Below, in pieces: positions 5,516 to 17,141 of a DNA stretch of 37,231 nucleotides. Every line of letters begins with the position of its first letter. The stretch's first letter is position 1. The notes beneath the pieces were generated by a model. That model made no database searches, was not told the origin of the DNA, and was given only the letters and a program-made list of their open reading frames with translations. Made by a program: the position numbers and the translations under genes. Origin of the DNA: a virus; the IMG/VR virus record IMGVR_UViG_3300009431_000061, positions 1 through 37,231 of that record; one strand, written 5' to 3'.

Positions 5516-6210
5516 GTAATCCTCCTTATATCAGCATAGTTCGGTAGATATTTATTTAACCTACGGACTATATGATTCGTAACTCTATCCCAGAAATGGT
5601 CTTTAAGGAATATGTCCTTATACTCTCTGAAAATCCTGAACCTCAAACAATGATAGTTATCATAATGCTTATGAAACACAGTATTGAACGAGAGAACCAT
5701 CTTTTCCATTTGTTCTTTATTAGTTACTTCCTTTAATAAGGTGTCTGTTATCACATTATGTGGCATCGCAGAGTATTCCACAACCACTCCTGGTATATAC
5801 CAGAACAACTTCTTCAAGAGATCTCCAATGATTCCTGCTTTTGCTACAGTATCAAACGCAAGATAAACATACCTTGATCCCCATTCCCGATGTCCATCAC
5901 AAGAACTGAATGGAAGATAGCCACGGTGTACTAATAAACGGATGAGTGGTTCTACCTTCGGTTCTATATTATACCAAAAGTGATCCGAATGTGGTGAAAC
6001 TGTAATGGCTCGAACATTGCCCTGCTCATCATAACCCGAATTCACCCTCCCATTTGCGTCTCTTTGATTGCTGAACACGTGTGAATACATCCACCCTAAC
6101 GACCCTTCGGCAAATCGCTTTTCGGCTCTCTCAGAGCGTCTCACAGCGTAATCGTATTGCCTTAGAGGAGCTTGTTCCACGATCGCTATAGGATTCAGGA
6201 GATCTAACAT
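5512..6210 (-). CDS. Unknown protein with an SSCDGH motif
   Basis: The protein has 232 residues, no signal peptide and no membrane span. The centre holds a distinctive stretch, LVHRGYLPFSSCDGHREWG, followed by an alternating hydrophobic strand (RYVYLAFDT). SSCDGH-like motifs of this kind appear in small uncharacterised phage and bacterial proteins, and the Cys, Asp and His could bind metal. The C-terminal third is basic and aromatic (HKHYDNYHCLRFRIFREYKD). The ATG at 6210 is chosen over an in-frame TTG at 6216, because GGGAGG stands seven bases before the ATG. It is coupled to the U32-like gene upstream and the BppU-N-like gene downstream. Its job is unknown; it may be an accessory to the neighbouring Fe-S enzyme. 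Confidence 0.55.
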   Translation of the reverse strand: MLDLLNPIAIVEQAPLRQYDYAVRRSERAEKRFAEGSLGWMYSHVFSNQRDANGRVNSGYDEQGNVRAITVSPHSDHFWYNIEPKVEPLIRLLVHRGYLPFSSCDGHREWGSRYVYLAFDTVAKAGIIGDLLKKLFWYIPGVVVEYSAMPHNVITDTLLKEVTNKEQMEKMVLSFNTVFHKHYDNYHCLRFRIFREYKDIFLKDHFWDRVTNHIVRRLNKYLPNYADIRRIT

Positions 6211-7163
6211 CTGCAAGCCTCCCAGTTATCTTCTTTTAAACATTCCTTCTCATAAAGCTCTTTACAATATTCACACTCTAAACAATGATGGTCACACGTA
6301 TGATCCAACCGCTCCCGTACGAATTCTTCTGGGATACCGTTCTCAAATTGTATTCCACAGAAACTCTTAGTCCGAGAAGGGCTAACCCAACTCTTCAAGA
6401 GTTCTGAGATCGAATCGTTGTCCATACTTCTTGTTGCGAACTTCACGATATCAACTTCTGTCAAATACTCCAAGAACTCTTTGGTGAATCCCATCCTAGT
6501 TAAATTAAGCCAACGAAGATCGCCAACCAACTTCTTGTAACAAGCCAAACCACAGAAGTCTCCAACATGTGCTTCGTTCTTCCGACCACAGATATCTTCA
6601 CCAAAAAGGTAATTACTAAACCCGTTTTTCATAAATAAACAATTCTCATTCGCAATCAACTTAACCTGGATCCTCCACCATTTAACAGCATGCATGAACT
6701 CGTGATCGAACATCCGTTGACTACTAAGGTTCACACACTGGAGATCACCCATTCTGAACTCTCTGGTAAGATCTCCTATGGAATCGATCGCAGGATCTGC
6801 TGCAGTCGATAGATGGAACTCTAACCCGAGGTCTCTGAACAACTCTACTTGGTAATGATTCAGAACTGTAATCGCTTTAAGATTCAGGTGATCTAAGAGT
6901 AAGAATTCTGACAGAATCTCTTCTGATTCAACCAAGGTATCAATTAACGTATGATTAAACAAAATGTTCCCCTGGATCCCATAAGTATTGAGCTTCGCCA
7001 TCGTTTCCAGTTCCTTCTCCCAAGTTAACCGTTCACCCAACACCCAAGTAGGACTGAAGTAATACGAGTGTATATAGGGTCGGTAGAGGTTCAAGAGATC
7101 GAAGAAATCTTGACCTGTTCTGTTATAACCCACCGAGAATTTATTCAGAAGTTCCTGCTTCAT
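6204..7163 (-). CDS. Peptidase U32-like (UbiU/UbiV/RlhA-type) Fe-S protein
   Basis: A 319-residue protein that resembles the peptidase U32 superfamily, which includes UbiU/UbiV, RlhA and TrhP. Matching elements are an N-terminal barrel part with YGIQGNILFNHTLID, the core signature LIANENCLFMKN (compare the family NE-x-CL motif), a later DICGRKNE and FCGLACYKK cysteine region, the strand DIVKFATRSMDND (compare the family fKxxGR segment), and a Cys-rich end with C-x3-C-x2-C-x2-C (CDHHCLECEYC). Studied members are not generally proteases but hold Fe-S clusters and support oxygen-independent hydroxylation of rRNA, tRNA or ubiquinone precursors. Here the gene sits in a fibre operon, directly after a 52-aa secreted peptide, so a modified peptide, protein or RNA are all possible substrates. 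The family call is by eye and not certain. Confidence 0.55.
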   Translation of the reverse strand: MKQELLNKFSVGYNRTGQDFFDLLNLYRPYIHSYYFSPTWVLGERLTWEKELETMAKLNTYGIQGNILFNHTLIDTLVESEEILSEFLLLDHLNLKAITVLNHYQVELFRDLGLEFHLSTAADPAIDSIGDLTREFRMGDLQCVNLSSQRMFDHEFMHAVKWWRIQVKLIANENCLFMKNGFSNYLFGEDICGRKNEAHVGDFCGLACYKKLVGDLRWLNLTRMGFTKEFLEYLTEVDIVKFATRSMDNDSISELLKSWVSPSRTKSFCGIQFENGIPEEFVRERLDHTCDHHCLECEYCKELYEKECLKEDNWEACRC

Positions 7164-7649: not shown

Positions 7650-9184
7650 TGTATTTCCTCCAGTACGAATTTGTATTTTTTACCGTCTGGTGAAAGGAGC
7701 ATAAGCCCACCATTCTCCCAGTCTTCTGTAATTCTCCACTTATTCATGAACCCTAAATCACCAGCTTCTATGTTCACCCCATAGATATTGCCAAAACGAT
7801 TACCTGGAGCTCCTATGTCTCCATTGCCGTCTCCAGAAGGATCGATATCATCACACTCCAGAGCAGCGAACTCAACACTACTGGAAGTCATAACATTTTG
7901 ATCCATATCATAAAGTTCATTCGCACCCTGACCTGTGTTGACTGTTAAGAAGGTGACCGCACTAGCCGTAGTTAAGTGCTGTCCTGTGTTGTAAGTTAAC
8001 TGAGTGTCACCTATCGCATTCGGAGTTACGCTTAACGTTACTGTTGAATTCGCTCCACCATCTGTTCGTGTGATCGCAGTACCTGCAGTTAAAGCACGTT
8101 CAGCTGAAAGATCTCCTGTGTTCGATATAGTCACGAAGGTTGCATCTGCAGGAGCCGTAGGATCTCCAATTTCGATTCCTCTAAAATTCACGAATACGCC
8201 TGAAGTCGTAGAGTCTGTGATAAGTAATGGTTTATTAATCTGTCCAACGCTCGAAGGTGCAGTATTCGTTAGAGCTCCCGCTACAGTTGGAGATAAGAAG
8301 TACGTATCTCCTTCGACCAACCCTGAGAGTGTATCACAATAACCAGCGAAGAGGATCGTAAAATTATTAGGATCCGTGACATAAGAGACAATGCCAACTA
8401 CTTCTGCATTAGCGACATTATCGGCTTGAGCTTCTGTTAACTCACTCGCAATAGAATCCCATCTTAAGACATCACCTGCAGTAAACCCATGAAGAGCCTG
8501 AGCTACCGCCATTGTGATCGCATCCATAGAAACAGTACCAGAAACCGATGCCCACTCCATACTAGCACCGTTCCATCTCACAAAGTAGTTCGTTGTAGGA
8601 GCATTATTCATAGCTAGCTTCGGCTCTGATACTCCATCATCTTTGACTGATAGATCGAAAGAACCGTCTAAACCAAGCGTGACATTATCGTATTTAACTG
8701 CGATGAGTCCTGGAATAGTGATGTCGATCGCATCTCCCTCAAGAGAGCTGTTCAGCATCCCAGGAATGATCCCAGCGTCTTTAACATATAAATCACCGCC
8801 ACCATCTAATCCGATACTCGCATCATCATACTTGACATCGAGGTCTAAGACCTCATTGGCTCCTGGGTTGATGATCGTCTTATCGAGACCGTCTCCCGCA
8901 GTCAACTTATCATCGAGATAGCTAGGAGTCGTATCAGCTGCAGTTACCCCTACGAATAAATCAGAGGAGCTTCCAATGACTACCCAAGTGGCACCGTTCC
9001 AACCGTAGACTGCTCCTACAGAAGTGACGTAACGGACATCCCCAACCTGATTCGCAAAAGTAGGGAGGTCTACCACATTGGTTACATATTTCCTCCAACG
9101 TTGATCTCCATACTTAGCCCAATCTGCATGGACAGTGCTTGTCAAAAACATTAACATCAAACCTATTGCAATGACTTTTCTCAT
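7646..9184 (-). CDS. Secreted tail-fibre protein with internal repeats (512 aa)
   Basis: The 512-residue chain starts with a Sec signal peptide (MRKVIAIGLMLMFLTSTVHA, then D). The body is recognisably phage-fibre: a YGWNGATWVVIGSS unit and two copies of a repeat (VKYDDASIGLDGGGDLYVKD and VKYDNVTLGLDGSFDLSVKD). Next come an aldolase-free beta domain with HGFTAGDVLRWD, a RALTAGTAITRTDGG segment and a C-terminal NRFGNIYGVNIEAGDLG region like those of fibre tips. The start overlaps the stop of the fourth radical SAM gene (ATGA), so enzyme and fibre are translated as a coupled pair. GGAGG is well placed. It may be either a virion fibre routed to the membrane or a secreted adhesin, and it is a candidate substrate of the enzyme cassette. 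Confidence 0.8.
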   Translation of the reverse strand: MRKVIAIGLMLMFLTSTVHADWAKYGDQRWRKYVTNVVDLPTFANQVGDVRYVTSVGAVYGWNGATWVVIGSSSDLFVGVTAADTTPSYLDDKLTAGDGLDKTIINPGANEVLDLDVKYDDASIGLDGGGDLYVKDAGIIPGMLNSSLEGDAIDITIPGLIAVKYDNVTLGLDGSFDLSVKDDGVSEPKLAMNNAPTTNYFVRWNGASMEWASVSGTVSMDAITMAVAQALHGFTAGDVLRWDSIASELTEAQADNVANAEVVGIVSYVTDPNNFTILFAGYCDTLSGLVEGDTYFLSPTVAGALTNTAPSSVGQINKPLLITDSTTSGVFVNFRGIEIGDPTAPADATFVTISNTGDLSAERALTAGTAITRTDGGANSTVTLSVTPNAIGDTQLTYNTGQHLTTASAVTFLTVNTGQGANELYDMDQNVMTSSSVEFAALECDDIDPSGDGNGDIGAPGNRFGNIYGVNIEAGDLGFMNKWRITEDWENGGLMLLSPDGKKYKFVLEEIQ

Positions 9185-10131
9185 AATTTATCCTCCGACT
9201 TATATAAACATTGTCTGTTCTTATAAACATACCGCTGAGCGTAGTAAGTCTTCCAACACATTCCTGGACAAGTCTCCTGCTCTGCACATGTATCGCATCC
9301 ATACCAATCGATTACTTGTTGGTATCCATAGTTCAAATACTCTTCGTCATATGCCAAACGGTTCCATTCCTCATCCTCAATCCAAGAAGGTCTCCTCGTG
9401 AAGCCTGCACAAGTGAAGACTCCTTTTGGAGTGATCACTCTAAGAGTATTCGCAACACAACGAACCCCCAAGTGCATCTCTGGGATTCGCATGTTCTTGT
9501 ATGAGTAACTGAATCCATCGAACATCACTGGCTCTTCCCAATCGATCCTAGCATACTGACCGAGTTGCTCTAAGTACTCTTCATGCTGCATCTTCTCATC
9601 TGCAACTAGAACTGCGATTCTCGAGATCTTCCCAATCTTCGCCAAATTCTCAAAATAAAGTTTCTTCTTCTCAGGAGTCATAATCCTCAACGTACTAAAA
9701 GGTACTTGAAGATTCACCTGATGGTGATCTCTCAAATATTGAGCGAACTCTATACCTAGATCACTCACATTCTCCAGAGATATCGGCATATCAACACACC
9801 CGTTACCTCCAATGAACCGCTGAACTCCTTGTATCAAACGGAGGATGTTCTTCCTATAGGATTCGTCTTTCACAAGACTATCCATGAATAACTCGCCACC
9901 GAAGAGCCTTACGACATTACTTCTTTCATCAAAATCTCTCGAAGAGAAAAACTCAATAACATGTTTGAATAAGTTCTCCCAATCTTGTGCACCCACGACA
10001 GACCGATTCAGGAAGCAGAATTTACAGCCTCCCTGACATTCCGCTGTAGGAAGTATGGCTACCTCCTGCATTGTTGGATTCAATCTCCGTTCTAACATTA
10101 TACTAGATGTTCGTGTCATTACAGATTCCAT
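9181..10131 (-). CDS. Radical SAM protein 4 with C-terminal SPASM-like cluster
   Basis: The protein has 316 residues. The radical SAM motif is C32-QGG-C36-KF-C39, the three cysteines that bind the [4Fe-4S] cluster used to cleave S-adenosylmethionine. A GGELFMD segment follows (compare the GGEP motif). Near the C-terminus lies a cysteine cluster, CDTCAEQETCPGMC, matching the SPASM pattern that holds auxiliary Fe-S clusters in peptide-modifying enzymes such as sactionine synthases and anaerobic sulfatase maturases. It overlaps the preceding radical SAM gene by 29 bases and the following fibre gene by four. ATG at 10131 is assumed; in-frame ATGs at 10119 and 10098 also exist, without better ribosome sites. 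Substrate and reaction are unknown. Confidence 0.85.
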   Translation of the reverse strand: MESVMTRTSSIMLERRLNPTMQEVAILPTAECQGGCKFCFLNRSVVGAQDWENLFKHVIEFFSSRDFDERSNVVRLFGGELFMDSLVKDESYRKNILRLIQGVQRFIGGNGCVDMPISLENVSDLGIEFAQYLRDHHQVNLQVPFSTLRIMTPEKKKLYFENLAKIGKISRIAVLVADEKMQHEEYLEQLGQYARIDWEEPVMFDGFSYSYKNMRIPEMHLGVRCVANTLRVITPKGVFTCAGFTRRPSWIEDEEWNRLAYDEEYLNYGYQQVIDWYGCDTCAEQETCPGMCWKTYYAQRYVYKNRQCLYKSEDKL

Positions 10132-11302
10132 AATTCTCTCTCATGAATTTAACGAATCTCTTAGCACCAATACACTCTGAAGATCCATCATAATCAGCTT
10201 TATACATCTCATAAAGACACCTACCTGCGTATTCGCAAGTTAAACAATCCATCCTCATCCCTGTGAGTCGTTGTCTCGCTAGATGACTTTTTCTTTTATG
10301 TCCTTCAATAATATCTTTGAATGTAACCCCCTCTTTCAGTCTACCGAACTCTTGTAGGTACTCAGAGTGATCTTGACCTTCTCCCATATAAAGAAACCGA
10401 AGCCAACCATCGATAAAAATCGTCTCTCCACCGAGATCTGTGGCTATATCGTTGTTGTGACAAGTATCATGAACCATCCCAGACATATGTGGAGAACCTC
10501 TATCAATTAATTCTTGGTGACACTCAATTGCAAATTGTGTGAATTCCTCCATATTCGCTGCATAATTATTCCATTTATCCCACTGACCTTTAATAGGGAT
10601 GAAAGGCTTCAACGAGAACCCTCCAATAATATCGTATTCTTCCAAAGTGTCGATATAATACTTCGCTCCGAGTTTCAACATATCTTGGTTCACCACCGAC
10701 ATGATACATACGTTAACACCCGCATTCCTGAGAGTCCGAATGTTCTTGAACATCCGAGTATTATAAGCTTCTCCCCTCGTAGGTCCATCCCAACTAGCTG
10801 CAACAGGATAAGGTTCCTTCGTTCTTGCGAATTCTTTGAATAAGTCTATCCAACCACGGTTCATCTGCTGTAAAGAAGAATACATATTATAACGAACACC
10901 CTTGAAGAACGTATTCGTGATTGCCATCAAAGCGAAGTAGTACTCAGGATCTTTGCTTTGAGGTTCTGCTCCATACATTGTTACTTTGAAATGGTGCCAG
11001 TTCTCCCGATACTCTTTAACAGACTGCCAGAGCTTGCTTAGATCGCCCAAACTCAGATCAGGGGACTTCTCATTATCGTTTAGAGCTCTGAGATAACAAG
11101 CTGGACAATTATTCGGACACTCGTAAGTAACCCATAGATGAGGATTAAAGTATCCAGTCTCTACATCAATGATGGGCTTATGATCTATCCTTTTGAGAGG
11201 GATAGCTCCCCACTGTAAAGACTTATCGTGCTGATTGTATTGCTCTTCAATACTCTTATACTGATTGAGTTGTCGTTGAGCAATAGTGCTTGTTTCTTTC
11301 AT
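10103..11302 (-). CDS. Radical SAM protein 3 with C-terminal cysteine cluster
   Basis: The protein has 399 residues. The CxxxCxxC motif is C62-PNN-C66-PA-C69, unusually far from the N-terminus because of a hydrophilic 50-residue lead. KVTMYGAEPQ stands in place of the usual GGEP loop. The C-terminal part has a CLTCEYAGRC cluster followed by a further cysteine in SSEC, like a twitch or partial SPASM domain. GAGGAA lies close to the ATG. The first 47 bases overlap the preceding radical SAM gene, indicating coupled translation. The length and the extra N-terminal region set it apart from the other three enzymes, so it may have a different role or bind a partner or leader sequence (inference). 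Confidence 0.85.
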   Translation of the reverse strand: MKETSTIAQRQLNQYKSIEEQYNQHDKSLQWGAIPLKRIDHKPIIDVETGYFNPHLWVTYECPNNCPACYLRALNDNEKSPDLSLGDLSKLWQSVKEYRENWHHFKVTMYGAEPQSKDPEYYFALMAITNTFFKGVRYNMYSSLQQMNRGWIDLFKEFARTKEPYPVAASWDGPTRGEAYNTRMFKNIRTLRNAGVNVCIMSVVNQDMLKLGAKYYIDTLEEYDIIGGFSLKPFIPIKGQWDKWNNYAANMEEFTQFAIECHQELIDRGSPHMSGMVHDTCHNNDIATDLGGETIFIDGWLRFLYMGEGQDHSEYLQEFGRLKEGVTFKDIIEGHKRKSHLARQRLTGMRMDCLTCEYAGRCLYEMYKADYDGSSECIGAKRFVKFMRENYGICNDTNI

Positions 11303-12365
11303 AGTTCCTCACATATTTAGCAAAGTTCTTATTCTCTATCAAAGCTTCCTTTAAGACACGGAAGTAATTCTTGCCTTCATAACACTCCATTGTTTGCATA
11401 CACCCACCATTGCACATCTGAAAATGTTCGCAGTCTAGACACTCTTGTCTTCGAGAGCGTTCCTCTATAACTAATGACTTCCTTAAATTAGAGTCCAGGA
11501 ACTTCTTAAAATCGTCGTAGAGATTGCAGATCAAATAGGTTTTACTGTTGTTCGGGCATAACCCAACTGTCCCATCTCCATTAATCGTCATCGTCGTTAA
11601 CATACAATCTCGACAAGAGCAACCAACAAAAGCTCCATCATAGTGACTCTTCGCTTTCCTTAGAATCTCACTCTCAGAGAACATCAGATAGGCACCGCTA
11701 TCGATGAAGAGTCTCGCAAACTCTGATTTCCAATGATCATATTCTTCAGGAGTCGGTGCAATGTCGTTCCAATTCCCCTGTGCATTCCCATCCTTCGTGA
11801 TCGGTTCGAAGTGGAATCCATAGAAACCTCGTTCCACTAAGAAATTAATTAATTGTTGAGGACGTGTTCTCTTGATATACTCTTTCGACAGAGTTACTAC
11901 TAAATAAAGATCAATATCGGCATCCTTTAGTCTTCGAAGATTCTTTTCCCAGACAACCTCTTGCATAGCATAATTCCCCATGAATCTAAGATAAGGAGAA
12001 TAAGAAGTCCCGACATGTCCACCAAGACGATCCCGTGCGAATTGAATGAACTTATCATCCACTCTTGTTAGATTCGTCTGAATCGAGAACTTCAGATCCG
12101 CAAGAACAAAACGACTCTGAATAAGGTTGCAGAACGCTTCCAACTTATCTACACCAACCAATGTCGGTTCTCCACCATGGAAAACGATATCCAAGAAGAG
12201 CTCTCTATTAGACAACCGATCTGCCATGGAATCCAAGAAGTGTTTGAACGAAATAATATTCAAAGCAGACTTCGTGTTATTCTTCTGATTGTAGCAATGC
12301 AAACAATTCAGATTGCAAGCTTCTGTAGGCTTCAAATACATAGTTATCTTATCCTTCAACAACAT
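11256..12365 (-). CDS. Radical SAM/SPASM protein 2
   Basis: The protein has 369 residues starting at 12365 (MLLKDKITMYLKPTEACN), which has GGGAG at the right distance. A longer in-frame reading from 12518 lies inside the preceding gene and is rejected. The motif C17-NLN-C21-LH-C24 and a perfect FHGGEPTL are seen, so the S-adenosylmethionine binding core is intact. The C-terminal CLDCEHFQMCNGGCMQTMEC is a canonical SPASM signature, closest in style to anaerobic sulfatase-maturase-like and peptide-modifying enzymes. An extra CSCRDC pair sits before it. It overlaps the gene before it by 17 bases and the gene after it by 47. This is the most canonical enzyme of the four; its likely substrate is a peptide or protein. 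Confidence 0.9.
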   Translation of the reverse strand: MLLKDKITMYLKPTEACNLNCLHCYNQKNNTKSALNIISFKHFLDSMADRLSNRELFLDIVFHGGEPTLVGVDKLEAFCNLIQSRFVLADLKFSIQTNLTRVDDKFIQFARDRLGGHVGTSYSPYLRFMGNYAMQEVVWEKNLRRLKDADIDLYLVVTLSKEYIKRTRPQQLINFLVERGFYGFHFEPITKDGNAQGNWNDIAPTPEEYDHWKSEFARLFIDSGAYLMFSESEILRKAKSHYDGAFVGCSCRDCMLTTMTINGDGTVGLCPNNSKTYLICNLYDDFKKFLDSNLRKSLVIEERSRRQECLDCEHFQMCNGGCMQTMECYEGKNYFRVLKEALIENKNFAKYVRNYERNKHYCSTTTQSV

Positions 12366-13293
12366 GTGACTCCCTTTCCAATTTGACAGCTTCTTTGAGA
12401 CACTTAAAGAACTCTTTAGCTGATGCACAATAACCTGGATCTTCGATTTGTTGTAACATCCAATTTCTGATATTACATCCTTTACAGAGCTCGAAATGCT
12501 CACACAGGAGACACTCATCTACGAATTCTATCTTAAGATCTTCTTTCTGGAGTTTCAGATCCCCCAGCACTGGACAAGGATACTCTTGACCATCCATCTC
12601 TACATCCACCATAACATCTTCACGAATGCAACTCTCAATAAAAGGACAAACAGAACCTTTTCTCCCAGCTAAGTGTTCATATAGATCTTGGAATGGTTGT
12701 AACTCAACCTCCCTACTATCTCTCAACCACTGATGAAACATATGTAAATAAACGTTGAATACTTCAGAGAGTTTCATCACTCTCTCAATATTCTCTTGAG
12801 CCTTCCCCGTAGGGAGTAGATAATTAAGCTTCATTGGGAATCTGTATTCCTTCGCATACGCATACCAATCTTTCGCTTTCTTATAAGACTTCAACATATC
12901 TAAATCCATTAAAACTAGCACAAGAGGTGAATGACCAAGGTTCTCTGTAATTTTCTCGAAAGTCTGATAGAACGTCTCAAAATCTTTGAATTTATCTCCG
13001 CTCACAGAGAGTCCTAAGAAATTCGGATGATTGAGAACTTGATTCCAGTGTTCTGTATAAAGTGTCAAGTTCGTTTGCATAGAGAACTCCATCCCAGAGT
13101 CCAACAACTCCAAATAATATTCTGGAGATAGTAGCATCGGTTCACCACCAATAATTAATTTCTGGTGATTCGGATACTTCTCGTTTAATGCTAACAGTTC
13201 TTCAACACTCATCCGTCCTTCTCCATTCGTCGAACAGAACCAACAATTGAGATTACATTCATAAATATTCTTAATAATCAATGATCTACGCAC
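12349..13293 (-). CDS. Radical SAM/SPASM protein 1
   Basis: The protein has 314 residues. The radical SAM motif C13-NLN-C17-WF-C20 is followed by IIGGEPML. The C-terminal cluster CLLCEHFELCKGC (C261, C264, C270, C273), with a last cysteine at C289, matches SPASM. Translation starts at GTG 13293, inside the end of the preceding gene (eight-base overlap) with GAGGT just upstream. It is the first of four radical SAM genes in a row. The four are clearly related in plan but divergent in sequence, so this is an old set of paralogues or independent recruitments rather than a recent tandem duplication. Its substrate is unknown. Confidence 0.88.
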   Translation of the reverse strand: MRRSLIIKNIYECNLNCWFCSTNGEGRMSVEELLALNEKYPNHQKLIIGGEPMLLSPEYYLELLDSGMEFSMQTNLTLYTEHWNQVLNHPNFLGLSVSGDKFKDFETFYQTFEKITENLGHSPLVLVLMDLDMLKSYKKAKDWYAYAKEYRFPMKLNYLLPTGKAQENIERVMKLSEVFNVYLHMFHQWLRDSREVELQPFQDLYEHLAGRKGSVCPFIESCIREDVMVDVEMDGQEYPCPVLGDLKLQKEDLKIEFVDECLLCEHFELCKGCNIRNWMLQQIEDPGYCASAKEFFKCLKEAVKLERESHVVEG

Positions 13294-14251
13294 ATGCTAC
13301 CTCTATTGGAAACAGATCGACTTTAGAGACTGTCTTCTTAGTTTTAACAGTCTTACATTCTCGAAGGAGCTTCAAGATATCTTGATTCGTCAATGATTGT
13401 AGATCTTCGACATAGATTTGCTCCTTATCTTTCTTGGCTAAATAACGCTCCACTGAGATCTCGTATTCTACAATCGGTGCTAACGTTCGGATAACATTTC
13501 CTCTAGAAGTAGACACTGCATAATCATAATTCTTCCTAGCTGCGAGAACCTTCATTGGGTTGTATTTCATATCCACCATGATATTCGCCAATGGGATATA
13601 TAACCCAGATTTAATCCTCTGCCCTTCTCCGACATACTTATGCTTCAACTCTTCCTTCGCATAGTAAGAGCGAGCTGTATCATAGAGATAAACACAGTGA
13701 GGAATAAAATCCTGTACGAATTCCTTCTTATTCTCAACTAGGTAAACCATGTACCACTGAGACCAGTCCATAATGAACTGCCTAGTATACTTATCCTGAA
13801 TATATGTGTAATAGATGAATTTCTCCAGCACTTTGTCTACCAACTCTTCCCACTCATCAAAGACCTCCACTTTATAAAAGTGTTTCAGGTAGAGAGCATA
13901 TAGAACAACGAGTACAATAATCTTAGTAGGGTAGACACACTGTTTCATATCAGCTTCCCCGTAATTCACCAGCATCTCTTCCATCTGCGGTGAAGTGGGA
14001 TTCTTTAACAGGATATTAAGATTTAAGTTATTACTCAAATTAATTAACTGCTTCCCATTCAGTTCCACTTGATCGAACTCAAGAAAGGTCGTATTCAACC
14101 TCTTAGGATGTTGCATCTCAATATCGAGCAACTTCTCAAAGTTCGAATAATTAAAAGGAGTCTTGCTCTTCAAGATATAATCAGTGTCTGCCTCATAAGA
14201 GTCGAGGAGTTCTCTGAGGTCTGAGATATATTTAACTTCACTATGGATCAT
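13286..14251 (-). CDS. Unknown protein upstream of radical SAM genes
   Basis: A 321-residue protein, without recognised domain, signal peptide or clear catalytic motif. A hydrophobic helix around residues 108-124 (TKIIVLVVLYALYLKHF) is followed by a very aromatic, Tyr- and Trp-rich helical region (about 130-200), suggesting a compact helical protein rather than a membrane protein. The end is basic with a KTVKTKKTVSK stretch. The ATG overlaps the preceding stop as ATGA, and the stop overlaps the start of radical SAM protein 1. Its fixed place between a methyltransferase block and the radical SAM block suggests it is part of the same cassette, perhaps a scaffold or substrate-recognition subunit (inference). 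Confidence 0.6.
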   Translation of the reverse strand: MIHSEVKYISDLRELLDSYEADTDYILKSKTPFNYSNFEKLLDIEMQHPKRLNTTFLEFDQVELNGKQLINLSNNLNLNILLKNPTSPQMEEMLVNYGEADMKQCVYPTKIIVLVVLYALYLKHFYKVEVFDEWEELVDKVLEKFIYYTYIQDKYTRQFIMDWSQWYMVYLVENKKEFVQDFIPHCVYLYDTARSYYAKEELKHKYVGEGQRIKSGLYIPLANIMVDMKYNPMKVLAARKNYDYAVSTSRGNVIRTLAPIVEYEISVERYLAKKDKEQIYVEDLQSLTNQDILKLLRECKTVKTKKTVSKVDLFPIEVACA

Positions 14252-14571
14252 TTTATTTTTATCCTCCCCTTTTTGAATTTATTTCCCAATTTATCTACGC
14301 TCTCTACGAGCTCTAATCGATATCCGAGCTTCTGAACTCGATCTAACGTTTCTTGATTCTTAGACATCCAATTGCTCAGTTGTCTCTCCCCAAAAACCAC
14401 GAAGAACTCAATTGAACCAGCTTCCGACTTCACTTGGATGTTCAAGCCACGCTCCACAAGGAGTTGATAAAGAAAATTCATACCAACCAGTTCTCCGTAT
14501 CCTAAGTTCTCGTATAAGGATTCAATACCTTCAAAGAGTGCTGAATCAACCTCATAAATCTTAACTGACAT
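14248..14571 (-). CDS. Unknown 107-aa protein in the enzyme cassette
   Basis: A small mixed alpha/beta protein without cysteine and without a recognised family. The pattern of a strand (SIEFFVVFG), then helices, then a strand (YRLELVES) and a basic end (FKKGRIKIK) resembles small binding domains. Its size, charge and position next to radical SAM genes would be compatible with a peptide-recognition subunit (RRE-like), but no specific RRE signature can be shown by eye. GGAGG is well placed before the ATG, and its stop overlaps the next start (ATGA). Confidence 0.55.
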   Translation of the reverse strand: MSVKIYEVDSALFEGIESLYENLGYGELVGMNFLYQLLVERGLNIQVKSEAGSIEFFVVFGERQLSNWMSKNQETLDRVQKLGYRLELVESVDKLGNKFKKGRIKIK

Positions 14572-15196
14572 GGGATCCTCCTAGTTTTAATAAATCTTTT
14601 ACTCTTATAGGAGTCTCCAAATCATGAGACTCCGTAACATGGTTTTTGACAACAAATCCAAGAGTCAAAGGATTCATCTGTACCCATCGGAGATTCTTGG
14701 AACTCAAGAAGCTCCAGATTGAAGTCCAATCCTTCATCCGAGGGAGTGTATCATTCGTGATCATAAGAACTAACTTCCCTCCTGGATTCAGATTCTTGTA
14801 ATAATACTCAAAACTTCGAACAAAATTGTTACCTATATAAAGCGGATTCACAATGATGTAATCGAACTTTATTGAGAACACGAACTGTTCAATATCTGCA
14901 ACGAAGAAGTTCTCTCGATAATGCGGTAATACTAGTTCCTGAGCTTGATCAATTGAGATCTCGTCGATATCTACTCCATAAGGCACAATTCTATGGATGG
15001 AGTTCTGAACAAGATAACTTAAGAAATAACCACAACCACACCCAAGATCTATCAGCCTACCTGGAGCATCTATTAGATTCAAGATAGCACGTCTGGAAAC
15101 GTCTAAGTCTGACGGAGTATGAACTCCGAAATCTTTATAGACTTCTATTGTGTACCCAATAATAGATTCATGCTCGTCAGTATGCTTCAATTGCAT
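14561..15196 (-). CDS. Class I S-adenosylmethionine-dependent methyltransferase
   Basis: The protein has 211 residues starting at ATG 15196 (an in-frame TTG one codon earlier is not preferred). Motif I is RLIDLGCGCGYF (about residues 47-58), an acidic end of strand 2 appears as YGVDIDE, and motif IV is DYIIVNPLY. This NPxY-type motif is typical of methyltransferases acting on the amide or amine nitrogen of DNA bases or of glutamine (PrmC-like NPPY). The post-motif region KNLNPGGKLVLMIT matches the usual strand 5. There is no target-recognition domain, so a small substrate or protein is more likely than specific DNA. It overlaps the preceding gene by 20 bases and the following gene by 11. Confidence 0.85.
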   Translation of the reverse strand: MQLKHTDEHESIIGYTIEVYKDFGVHTPSDLDVSRRAILNLIDAPGRLIDLGCGCGYFLSYLVQNSIHRIVPYGVDIDEISIDQAQELVLPHYRENFFVADIEQFVFSIKFDYIIVNPLYIGNNFVRSFEYYYKNLNPGGKLVLMITNDTLPRMKDWTSIWSFLSSKNLRWVQMNPLTLGFVVKNHVTESHDLETPIRVKDLLKLGGSHVS

Positions 15197-15629
15197 CAAT
15201 AACCTCTTTCGGATAATAGAACAGTTCTACCGCAGGATCATGCGTCTGCTGTTGTGTACGAATAACATCCGTGAGATCTACAACAGTCGGTTCGAACTGT
15301 TTAATCATATCGTTATATTTGTTGATGTTACTATAGAGCTCAATGTCGTAGTCTCGGAGCTCCTCCTTTTTGAGACGTACAAGACTTCTGAGAGTGTATT
15401 TTCCGCTCTCTTTCTTAGAAATATATGGCAAAGTGTAGAACAAAGATTCCATTAACACAAGGAGCATCCTCATCCGACCACCTCTATCCAAGTATTTCTT
15501 TTTAAGTACTTCCTTAAGACCTGGGATGTATTCATCGTCCATATAAGCTGCCTTCGTGGGGCAGTATTCAGTGAAGCTCTCAGTGTCAGGAAGTTTTTTA
15601 TCTTGTGGAAATAATAGTATTACCTTCAT
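15177..15629 (-). CDS. Unknown 150-aa protein in the enzyme cassette
   Basis: No family is recognised. The N-terminus MKVILLFPQD looks like a first beta strand of an alpha/beta fold. The rest is helical and rich in Lys, Glu and Tyr, with one cysteine (EYCPTKAAY). The C-terminal part, around VVDLTDVIRTQ, again suggests a strand-helix unit. This general look (strand, then C-P-T-K region) is compatible with a small Rossmann-like protein, such as the B12-binding-like N-terminal halves of some radical SAM proteins, but that is speculative. Its start overlaps the preceding stop as ATGA. Confidence 0.55.
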   Translation of the reverse strand: MKVILLFPQDKKLPDTESFTEYCPTKAAYMDDEYIPGLKEVLKKKYLDRGGRMRMLLVLMESLFYTLPYISKKESGKYTLRSLVRLKKEELRDYDIELYSNINKYNDMIKQFEPTVVDLTDVIRTQQQTHDPAVELFYYPKEVIDAIEAY

Positions 15630-16573
15630 CGTATTGGTCTCGCCTCCTCTAGCTTCTTACTTGATGGATAATGAGTTAACACCACAAAGAACATCTCATC
15701 TACAGGGATGTGAGGTCTCGAAGGGATAGTAATCAAGAAGCACCCATCAATTCCTCGATCCAACCAACGTTTGAATTTTTTCTTATCGAATCTGCAAAGG
15801 ATCTGATCGCTCTTCTCAGTGTATACTAACCCAGTCAGAGAGTCCAGAACTTGTAGAATCGGTCTCCCTTGGTAGTATTGTTTATACTCTGGCTTCACCC
15901 GCACATAGTAATCTCGAGTTAACGGTCTGTAATAGACCTCTCCATCTTTGACTACATAGGTACAGACAAAATTAGAGAACTGAGCACAAAGAGTACATCC
16001 ATGCTCTTTCTGATACTGCTTAAGAGCTTCTTCACCCTTTACATCCTGATCTGCGATCAATACTATTTTGAACGCTGTCCGACTAAGCTTGACTTGATCA
16101 ATTGGAATCTCGGGTTTCATGTAAACGTGATCCACTGGTGCAGCGTATTTATCTAACCAGTGAGTATAATGAATCATCCTCCTTCGCAATAAATCCATTG
16201 GGAGTGTTAAATACATTAGATCCGCCTTCTCACCAGCGAATGTAGACAGTTTTATAGGATCTCTCCAACAGTCTATGTTAGGACCACTCTTCCCATCGAA
16301 CAGACATTTGAACGTGTCTCTCCCATCTCTGACTCTCTGCCAACTCACCTGAAACCAATTCGCATACATATCGAAGTACTCGAATTTTCTGGGAGTGAAG
16401 TCTAGGTTGAAATATTCAACTGCGTCTTCAGTCTCTTCTACATCGAAATGCGAGTAGACTCCAGGCTCAAGCTCCTTTAGTGTAACCCTATCTTTATTAC
16501 CACCAAGGAGTTGAGTGTAATAGTCAGCGAGTTTCGTGTACTTCGTATCGTGACTTTCATGAATTTTAGCCAT
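15626..16573 (-). CDS. Unknown 315-aa protein, first gene of the cassette
   Basis: No domain is recognised with confidence. The chain has aromatic, charged segments and a short cysteine pair, GCTLC, followed by FVC about seven residues later, near residues 193-205. It also has a hydrophobic strand KIVLIADQD just before that and a strongly basic patch (KKKFKRW). It is not secreted and has no membrane span. GGAGT precedes the ATG. It lies ten bases after the Cys/His-tailed protein gene and is coupled to the next gene (ATGA). Position alone suggests that it acts with the methyltransferase and radical SAM enzymes; a substrate carrier or chaperone for the tailed protein would be one possibility. 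Confidence 0.6.
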   Translation of the reverse strand: MAKIHESHDTKYTKLADYYTQLLGGNKDRVTLKELEPGVYSHFDVEETEDAVEYFNLDFTPRKFEYFDMYANWFQVSWQRVRDGRDTFKCLFDGKSGPNIDCWRDPIKLSTFAGEKADLMYLTLPMDLLRRRMIHYTHWLDKYAAPVDHVYMKPEIPIDQVKLSRTAFKIVLIADQDVKGEEALKQYQKEHGCTLCAQFSNFVCTYVVKDGEVYYRPLTRDYYVRVKPEYKQYYQGRPILQVLDSLTGLVYTEKSDQILCRFDKKKFKRWLDRGIDGCFLITIPSRPHIPVDEMFFVVLTHYPSSKKLEEARPIR

Positions 16574-16583
16574 AACTCACTCC

Positions 16584-17141
16584 TTATCTTTTACTTCTTC
16601 GACAATCACCATGACAACTTGAATGGCAACTGCTATGACATTCGTTAATATAAACATACTCAGCTCCAGGTGCTACACCTAACACCGTCGAGTTATGAAT
16701 CACAACTCCATCCACAATGATCTCCACTACATCCCGAGTGCTCACAATGTTCTCGATCAAATCAGCAGCATTCGGAGGTGCTATATAATCTGGAGTATCT
16801 GGTGGAAAACTCGCTGAACGAGTTCCGATAACATCGACTGAAGTAACTGTCCTGTTGTATTGCCAACTACCATTATTCAGTTGTCTCCTACAACTCTCGT
16901 ATTTCCTCAGAAGATTGTATTTGTACACTAAACCATCCCCGTCAGAGTACTCATCTGCATCTACTTGCTCTCCTTGTGCGATAGATCTTGAGATCTGCGT
17001 GATCGCAGCTTCCAAGGTAATCGAAGGAGTGATCGTCCCTGTAGTCGAGGCTATGTGCACTGCATTGAAACTCGACAGGAGACCATTGATTGCGGACTTG
17101 GCACTAGTCCAGTCCGCTGCTGCTACTAATCTTACAGACAT
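16584..17141 (-). CDS. Virion-like protein with a C-terminal Cys/His repeat tail
   Basis: The protein has 185 residues. The first 165 look like a phage fibre or baseplate accessory protein, with hydrophobic strands (VVEIIVDGVVIHNS) and a helical N-terminus. The last 18 residues form a striking tail, C168-HSS-C172-HSS-C176-HGD-C180-RRSKR: four cysteines exactly four residues apart, three followed by His, ending in a basic patch. The codons of the repeat units differ (AGC AGT versus TCA AGT; TGC versus TGT), so the repeat is kept at protein level rather than being a fresh DNA duplication. The tail could bind metal, form cross-links, or be modified by the radical SAM enzymes encoded just downstream. 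GGAGG is well placed before the ATG. The fibre role is inferred from neighbours. Confidence 0.7.
   Translation of the reverse strand: MSVRLVAAADWTSAKSAINGLLSSFNAVHIASTTGTITPSITLEAAITQISRSIAQGEQVDADEYSDGDGLVYKYNLLRKYESCRRQLNNGSWQYNRTVTSVDVIGTRSASFPPDTPDYIAPPNAADLIENIVSTRDVVEIIVDGVVIHNSTVLGVAPGAEYVYINECHSSCHSSCHGDCRRSKR

Follow-up and report, generated by a model that had tools for sequence, protein, structure and literature searches.

Several described radical-SAM systems resemble the locus reported here. In the His-Xaa-Ser system (HxsA with HxsB and HxsC; TIGR03978, TIGR03977), HxsA, the His/Ser repeat protein, is encoded beside more than one dedicated radical-SAM enzyme. The maturases DynA, PapB, CteB and SuiB (dynobactin, ranthipeptides, sactipeptides, streptide) act on short leader-core peptides, while the substrate of anSME (TIGR03942) is a protein of full size, in which a residue is altered at the target motif C/S-x-P-x-R.

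The locus analysed here lies in positions 1 to 37,231 of the virus record IMGVR_UViG_3300009431_000061 (the entire 37,231-nucleotide stretch is called the window below). It combines four radical-SAM enzymes, of subfamilies that we call R1 to R4, with a protein ending in a Cys-His repeat tag. As in the His-Xaa-Ser system, a repeat protein accompanies several dedicated enzymes, but the phage repeat contains Cys, has a period of four, is located at the extreme C-terminus, is served by four enzymes and occurs almost only in viruses. Matches of the window's enzymes to this system are weak, with R1 scoring 35.2 bits against HxsB (cut-off 370) and R3 scoring 16.8 bits against HxsC (cut-off 267.9). 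R1 has the same domain order as DynA, PapB, CteB and SuiB, and its SPASM domain scores above the cut-off of TIGR04085. Its best curated model is DynA (109.7 bits, below the cut-off of 450), its PapB score is 60.5 bits (below 340), and its relatives of solved structure include CteB and SuiB. In contrast to these peptide maturases, the phage enzymes are proposed to act not on a short leader-core peptide but on the end of a folded protein from the tail region. In acting on a full-size protein, the phage enzymes would resemble anSME, whose structures 4k36 and 4k37 are the closest solved ones to R1 and whose model R1 matches with 75.2 bits (below the cut-off of 349.45). However, the cassettes contain no sulfatase, and the tag has no C/S-x-P-x-R motif. 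In database comparisons, R1 is closest to maturases of peptides and proteins.

Four radical-SAM enzymes in a contractile-tail operon

A sequence-only reading of this DNA had proposed that four mutually overlapping minus-strand genes, between positions 13293 and 9181 and inside a contractile-tail operon, encode radical-SAM enzymes, and this proposal holds. The CxxxCxxC motif is readable in all four sequences. The radical-SAM model PF04055 (cut-off 29.5 bits) matches the record in exactly four places, which are these four genes. Two of the matches (40.1 and 34.5 bits) pass the cut-off, and the genes behind the two lower ones (26.2 and 16.2 bits) are confirmed by profiles of related phage enzymes, with E-values of 3e-15 and 1.3e-11. 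By their motif together with PF04055 or subfamily profiles, all four enzymes belong to the radical SAM superfamily.

R1 to R4 are subfamilies found in nearly every cassette that we compared, and the window's enzymes could be assigned to them one-to-one. The R3 enzyme (12349..13293, minus strand; CNLNCWFC) matches PF04055 with 34.5 bits and the R3 profile with 73 bits. The R1 enzyme, which has the SPASM domain (minus strand; CNLNCLHC), matches them with 40.1 bits and, for the R1 profile, 237 bits. Its reading frame is open to 12518, but the gene probably starts at 12365 (MLLKD..., matching the orthologue in a related phage, L372, described below), giving coordinates of 11256..12365. The overlap with the upstream gene that had been read from the longer frame therefore exists, but it is probably about 17 nucleotides and not 170. 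The next enzyme (10103..11302, minus strand; CPNNCPAC) best matches R4, an assignment that is narrow, with R1 close behind (49.4 versus 43.3 bits). The last enzyme (9181..10131, minus strand; CQGGCKFC) belongs to R2 (37.5 bits; hhalign probability 98%). The latter two are 54% and 58% identical, respectively, to their L372 counterparts.

The C-terminal Cys clusters that had also been noticed are genuine, and are common to the enzymes of related phages. R1 has eight invariant auxiliary Cys residues, and the other three enzymes have between four and seven conserved C-terminal Cys each, with seven in R3 and four in R4. Judged by these residues, all four enzymes are predicted to carry SPASM/twitch-type auxiliary clusters.

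The tagged protein and its association with the enzymes

The range to which attention had first been drawn, 9181-16573, contains the four enzymes, but the first gene of the cassette lies just beyond it. This key element, missed in that reading, is the minus-strand gene at 16584..17141, which encodes a 185-amino-acid protein with the C-terminus ECHSSCHSSCHGDCRRSKR. The tag itself, CHSSCHSSCHGDCRRSKR, occupies the 18 codons before the stop (16587..16640, minus strand), and includes the only CHxxCHxxCH found in a six-frame scan of the window. The window thus contains what we define as a phage tag cassette, namely a C-terminal CHxxCHxxCH tag together with R1 to R4. The protein matches a profile of tagged proteins with an E-value of 6.9e-7, a match carried by the tag, whose end reads C-R-R-S-K-R instead of the final R-x-R-R. 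The body of the protein has no detectable relationship to the main tagged-protein family, so that the window is linked to the wider system by its tag, its R1-R4 matches and L372, where the counterpart of the tagged protein is 53% identical.

The C-terminal pattern CHxSCHxSCHxSRxRR recurs in more than 100 viral contigs. It is present in the cultured Burkholderia phages FLC6, FLC8 and SURPRISE13, Agrobacterium phage Atu_ph07, Sinorhizobium phage Phosso and Pseudomonas phage DT01, and is almost restricted to viruses. With a first version of the tag pattern, all 40 records with a real tag, as judged by our own sorting of their reading frames, had radical-SAM matches. A broader pattern gave radical-SAM genes in 50/50 tested records and in 0/39 controls; the control records were smaller on average than the tagged ones, but tagged records of similar size were positive too. 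A second test was positive for 4/4 tagged records and for 0/36 controls. In view of these control patterns, we rejected the possibility that the tag is a chance motif. In the reverse direction, 72 of the 80 loci retrieved with a profile of the R1 enzyme contain the tag, which is in the next gene in 64 of them. The alignment profile was needed for this retrieval, and single-sequence searches of viral contigs found no close relatives of the R1 enzyme or of the tail sheath. Enzymes and tag therefore co-occur in both directions, an arrangement that corresponds to the RiPP hallmark of maturases encoded next to their own substrate, a gene product with a conserved core.

Metal-binding tips are known in phage spikes, and the three Cys-His pairs of the tag could hold a metal. 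The tag might thus bind a metal or another cofactor, while the radical-SAM enzymes act on something nearby, such as another tail protein. We consider this quite improbable, since the enzymes always accompany the tag in the tested sets, the tag directly follows R1 in most loci, and inspection of 24 cassettes revealed no further shared protein with a conserved segment. Attachment of c-type haem was also considered, as the tag contains CX3CH, and was rejected because it leaves the radical-SAM partners without account.

A core-like C-terminal repeat next to multiple maturases is typical of RiPP clusters, and could further suggest a strict RiPP precursor, in which the modified C-terminal segment is cleaved off and set free as a small peptide with bioactivity, directed for instance at the host or at rival phages, instead of being retained in the virion. 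Several features make this unlikely. No recurrent protease or exporter family was found among the partner clusters examined. In the main tagged family, the body is predicted with confidence to be a folded domain of about 165 residues, unlike a short leader (neither this fold nor that of partner family C5 had a PDB match). Furthermore, in locus L344 a peptidase-S74 fibre chaperone directly follows the tag within the same tagged protein, and the genes usually lie in a tail-gene neighbourhood.

Mobility, tail-region context and accessory genes

A collinear cassette was found in L372, a 75-kb phage whose cassette is identical in gene content and order except for the missing methyltransferase, with non-homologous flanks. 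The cassette thus travels as a unit between phages. As had been described, four genes with no assigned function and a methyltransferase accompany the enzymes, and all of these genes are encoded by the minus strand and overlap one another. The first of them (15626..16573; 315 amino acids) belongs to no known family and is 59% identical to the L372 protein in the same place. The next (15177..15629; 150 amino acids) is 52% identical to its L372 counterpart, the 107-amino-acid protein (14248..14571) has a partial L372 match (36% over 55 amino acids), and the 321-amino-acid protein (13286..14251) is 49% identical. This last protein may be a divergent version of partner families C3/C5, to which it has weak similarity (E-values of 0.0008 and 0.03, without hhalign support). 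No relation of the 315-, 150- and 107-amino-acid proteins to partner families of other cassettes was established. The class I methyltransferase (14561..15199; NPLY motif) is genuine (PF05175, E 5.5e-10), but neither L372 nor the other fetched loci contain a match to it; its absence from L372, the nearest related cassette, rules it out as a core gene. Other cassettes likewise lack most of the window's accessory genes. Two minus-strand genes further along do have relatives in such cassettes. A Cys-rich protein (6204..7163), a possible companion, is 54% identical over 39 amino acids to an ORF within a tagged radical-SAM cluster in L014, and a frequent companion, family C22 (5512..6216), has tblastn matches in 19 fetched loci, including the cassette loci L250, L395, L398 and L411.

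The cassette is in the tail region, and among the compared cassettes the enzymes and the tagged gene mostly adjoin tail genes. In Atu_ph07, the tagged protein is gp170, which falls at the edge of the mass-spectrometric cluster of virion-protein genes delimited as CDS 170-215 in passages of the phage's description (PMC6102473). The clues to a possible placement in the virion are this cluster edge, the S74 chaperone of L344 and the tail-gene neighbourhood.

The enzymes could instead be auxiliary metabolic genes, for RNA, nucleotide or cofactor modification, located in the tail region by chance. Radical-SAM enzymes, for example QueE and NrdG, are indeed known from phages, and single members of the set are weakly similar to such models. 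This explanation is highly improbable, given that R1 finds its best relatives among maturases of peptides and proteins, that co-occurrence with one tag is strict, and that the cassette was transferred as a unit in L372. Relocation of the enzymes to a metabolic context, which would have spoken against the original proposal, was not seen in the compared cassettes.

A proposed maturation system for a phage particle protein

The sequence-only reading suggested modification, by the phage, of a protein that is exported or part of the virion, or else synthesis of a RiPP-like product. Genomic evidence supports this, and the two-way co-occurrence of tag and enzymes, the movement of the module as a unit and the S74 domain on one tagged protein favour the virion protein. 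Probably, then, the phage encodes a dedicated RiPP-like maturation system whose target is the Cys-His tail of a tail or fibre protein in its virion. Since a mobile four-enzyme set adjoins a tagged tail-region protein in many phages, the tip of one of the phage's own particle proteins is very probably chemically altered. That the tag is the modified site is our inference, as are the chemistry, the placement of this phage's tagged protein in the virion, and the biological role. In the mechanism we propose, R1 to R4, as dedicated enzymes with auxiliary Fe-S clusters and small partner proteins, would act on the Cys-His-x-Ser repeat tag of the 17141-16584 product. The likeliest chemistry would be thioether or carbon-carbon cross-links within the CHxS repeats, possibly with further decoration by 2OG-Fe(II) oxygenases in other cassettes, and here perhaps by the methyltransferase. 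The modified protein would become a displayed tail or fibre component, whose altered Cys-His tip may serve adsorption or tip stability. More tentatively, it is possible that this is a virus-specific pathway of several phage lineages, in which mobile R1-R4 enzymes with oxygenase or methyltransferase accessories turn a (CHxS)3 fibre tag into a cross-linked, non-canonical adsorption tip, with a type of cross-link new to peptides.

Radical-SAM genes have been noted in passages on the jumbo phages FLC6, SURPRISE13 and RP12/RP31 and on pelagimyophages (PMC8066314, PMC11898562, PMC5468394, PMC7029224), and for pelagimyophages as gene cassettes in the HRC region (PMC7029224). In those passages the genes are listed singly, without a substrate, tag or common system, although FLC6 and SURPRISE13 bear a cassette and a tag of the kind found in the window. 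The word ‘radical’ is absent from a comparative review of jumbo phages, searches for the tag string returned unrelated matches only, and the passages found in papers on phage radical-SAM enzymes or RiPPs do not describe the system. Our search, which covered neither subscription papers nor preprints, found no paper linking the enzymes to the tag, or reporting a viral particle modified by radical-SAM chemistry.

The culturable phages FLC6, SURPRISE13 and Atu_ph07 make this prediction accessible to mass spectrometry. If it is correct, the tag and its dedicated enzymes might serve as a tool for decorating the C-termini of proteins, Cys-His repeats would constitute a new class of substrate, and the unexplained radical-SAM genes of jumbo and marine phages would gain a function.

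The tagged gene and the cassette in the window

The window, a virus record of 37,231 bases, is part of the genome of a contractile-tail phage, and its main genes all lie on the minus strand; recognised genes include those for a baseplate wedge protein (22611-20905) and a tail-protein-I-like product with a tail-collar-like end (19915-18533). A sequence-only reading had proposed a block at 9181-16573 in which four unknown genes and one methyltransferase precede four radical-SAM genes. The four enzymes are real, as each carries CxxxCxxC and PF04055 matches occur in the record at just these four places, and the genes ahead of them were confirmed. The proposed range, however, left out the first gene in transcription order, 17141-16584. 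This gene encodes a 185-residue protein with the C-terminal end ECHSSCHSSCHGDCRRSKR, which holds the only CHxxCHxxCH in the six frames of the window. We call this Cys-His repeat the tag.

Short proteins encoded at 17353-17156 and 7649-7335, with the common ends LFVFIGVGEVGTTDGWFNLKQAVYA and LYVFIGVGRTGTTSGWFNLSQALYA, flank the cassette and are a paralogous pair on both sides of an inserted block. By eye, the tail-region proteins 9184-7646, 3017-873, 845-3 and 7393-7163 (minus strand) start with apparent Sec signal peptides (for example, MRKVIAIGLMLMFLTSTVHA and MIKKLLTLILVGAMLCPAAYA), which is unusual for phage tail proteins; perhaps these are exported proteins of the infected cell. The Cys-rich product of 7163-6204 resembles, also by eye, a peptidase-U32-type barrel. 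It had no match in Pfam or PDB; one partial relative lies in L014, part of a phage record of 504 kb that has 14 matches to radical SAM.

Co-occurrence of the tag and radical-SAM enzymes

The C-terminal tag is a genuine motif that recurs across phages. We scanned 2.9 million viral contigs with a degenerate DNA pattern that encodes a CHSSCHSSCHG core, takes S- or T-like codons where residues are free and may lie at any position; it matched 46 stretches. By our own reading of the frames, 40 of these are real tags, located a few residues ahead of an ORF stop and nearly all ending in CHSSCHSSCHGSRGRR or similar, and six are chance reading frames. A broader pattern matched at least 120 stretches in viral contigs; among the matches listed, its free positions are also conserved (S/N at 3 and 7, S/A/N at 11, G/S at 13), as is a V, I or L immediately ahead of the tag. 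The commonest tag peptide has 21 different DNA encodings. Among cellular genomes (84,980 searched), only four contigs carry the first pattern, three of them with real tags, in MAGs; these three are probably phage contigs.

The tag and the radical-SAM enzymes are associated whichever of the two is taken as the starting point. Radical-SAM matches were obtained in each of the 40 records whose first-pattern tag is real, mostly three to six per record, and in all 50 tested records of the broader pattern; one chance-frame record out of the six has a single match. None of 39 control records, chosen by a chance pattern of composition similar to the tag pattern, has such a match (Fisher p 4e-26), a contrast that is not fully size-matched, as controls were smaller on average than tagged records; tagged records of only 6 to 30 kb are also positive. 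A four-Cys pattern served for a second test. Four of its 40 records were positive, precisely those whose motif falls within a plausible tag ORF next to radical-SAM genes, and these had been singled out ahead of the radical-SAM search. In the reverse direction, a profile of R1, one of the four radical-SAM subfamilies, found 344 relatives in viral contigs. Among the best 80 of these 344, the locus contains the tag in 72, with the tagged gene directly after R1 in 64 of the 72. The strict tag is missing from eight, of which one (L372) has a variant tag of the window type and most others have little or no sequence beyond the match.

Enzyme subfamilies and exchange between phages

We compared cassettes in 24 loci, including the cultured phages SURPRISE13, Atu_ph07, DT01 and Phosso and one atypical locus (L245). 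Each of the subfamilies R1 to R4 was found in 22-23 of the 24. A 2OG-Fe(II) oxygenase (PF13759) and a cupin/JmjC-like protein recur as partners, as do unknown families of about 135, 240 and 365 residues. Since the subfamily profiles place the window's minus-strand enzymes one to one in R1 (12518-11256, 237 bits), R2 (10131-9181, 37.5 bits), R3 (13293-12349, 73 bits) and R4 (11302-10103, 49 bits, with R1 close behind at 43), the window is a divergent representative of this system. Relatives of the gene at 6216-5512 occur in 19 of the loci fetched; the remaining accessory genes of the window showed no detectable sharing with main-family cassettes. A second cassette type (in L086, L108, L151, L159 and similar loci) has two tandem tagged genes of ~130 residues and extra radical-SAM genes of a subfamily R0.

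The cassette moves as a unit between phages. In L372, a locus of a 75-kb phage contig, its genes are collinear with those of the window (identity 53% for the tag protein; 59%, 52% and 49% for the 315-, 150- and 321-residue proteins; 45%, 50%, 54% and 58% for R3, R1, R4 and R2), and the flanking genes, searched against the window, gave no match. The window's 107-residue gene is partly present in L372. The methyltransferase gene is missing from that cassette and is therefore accessory. The L372 tag is ECHSSCHSSCYSSCKRGKR, so a fourth Cys and a basic end are traits of the window/L372 subtype.

The tagged protein as a putative substrate

The tagged protein is a likely tail or fibre component. Cassettes mostly adjoin tail genes. 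In one viral locus (L344), a four-repeat tag is followed at once by a peptidase S74 domain (44.8 bits; cut-off 22), and a related protein (in L316) stops just past its tag. In tail fibres and spikes, peptidase S74 serves as a chaperone that cleaves itself off, and its cleavage in L344 would leave the tag near the mature C-terminus. The tag protein of Atu_ph07 is gp170. According to the virion MS study of this phage, most virion proteins fall in three gene clusters, one of which is CDS 170-215 (PMC6102473); on our reading the tag protein itself, at the cluster edge, was probably detected. For the main tag-protein family, AlphaFold predicts a confidently folded body (pLDDT 91) and a low-confidence C-terminal end. 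Foldseek found the body fold in other phage proteins, including that of Atu_ph07, and gave no match in the PDB. The fold also occurs in three larger proteins of Myoviridae sp. ctijX18 (BFVD A0A8S5USJ7, A0A8S5USJ8, A0A8S5USV2). In another locus, the product of L352:2865-1642 has a five-repeat tag, a PT-rich linker and a stretch (GGGGGGCVAIAS...HHN) that by eye is Hint/intein-like and may be another self-cleaving end; a Pfam search gave no Hint match.

The co-occurrence and adjacency of tag and enzymes suggest that the tag is their target. R1 has three SAM-cluster and eight auxiliary Cys that are invariant between the window and jumbo phages, and among its relatives the closest are maturases of proteins and peptides (anSME, DynA, PapB, CteB, SuiB); for these reasons, we think that the four enzymes would modify the CHxS repeats. 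Thioether or carbon-carbon cross-links would be the most likely modification, a guess from family resemblance to which we give about an even chance, and oxygenases or the methyltransferase might add to it.

This class of chemistry is already known. The window enzymes resemble specific peptide-maturase families and the His-Xaa-Ser families, yet do not reach the curated cut-offs of either. In the passages found, papers on FLC6, SURPRISE13, RP12/RP31 and pelagimyophages name radical-SAM genes but link them to no substrate or system (PMC8066314, PMC11898562, PMC5468394, PMC7029224). In PHROGs, phrog_35144 contains the tag and two partners have families of their own; none of these families has an assigned function. 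A search of the literature outside subscription journals and preprints found no relevant occurrence of the tag string among the papers listed and, as far as that literature is searchable, a virus-borne four-enzyme system with a Cys-His tag is undescribed. For the phages that carry it, the modified tag may serve adsorption or tip stability.
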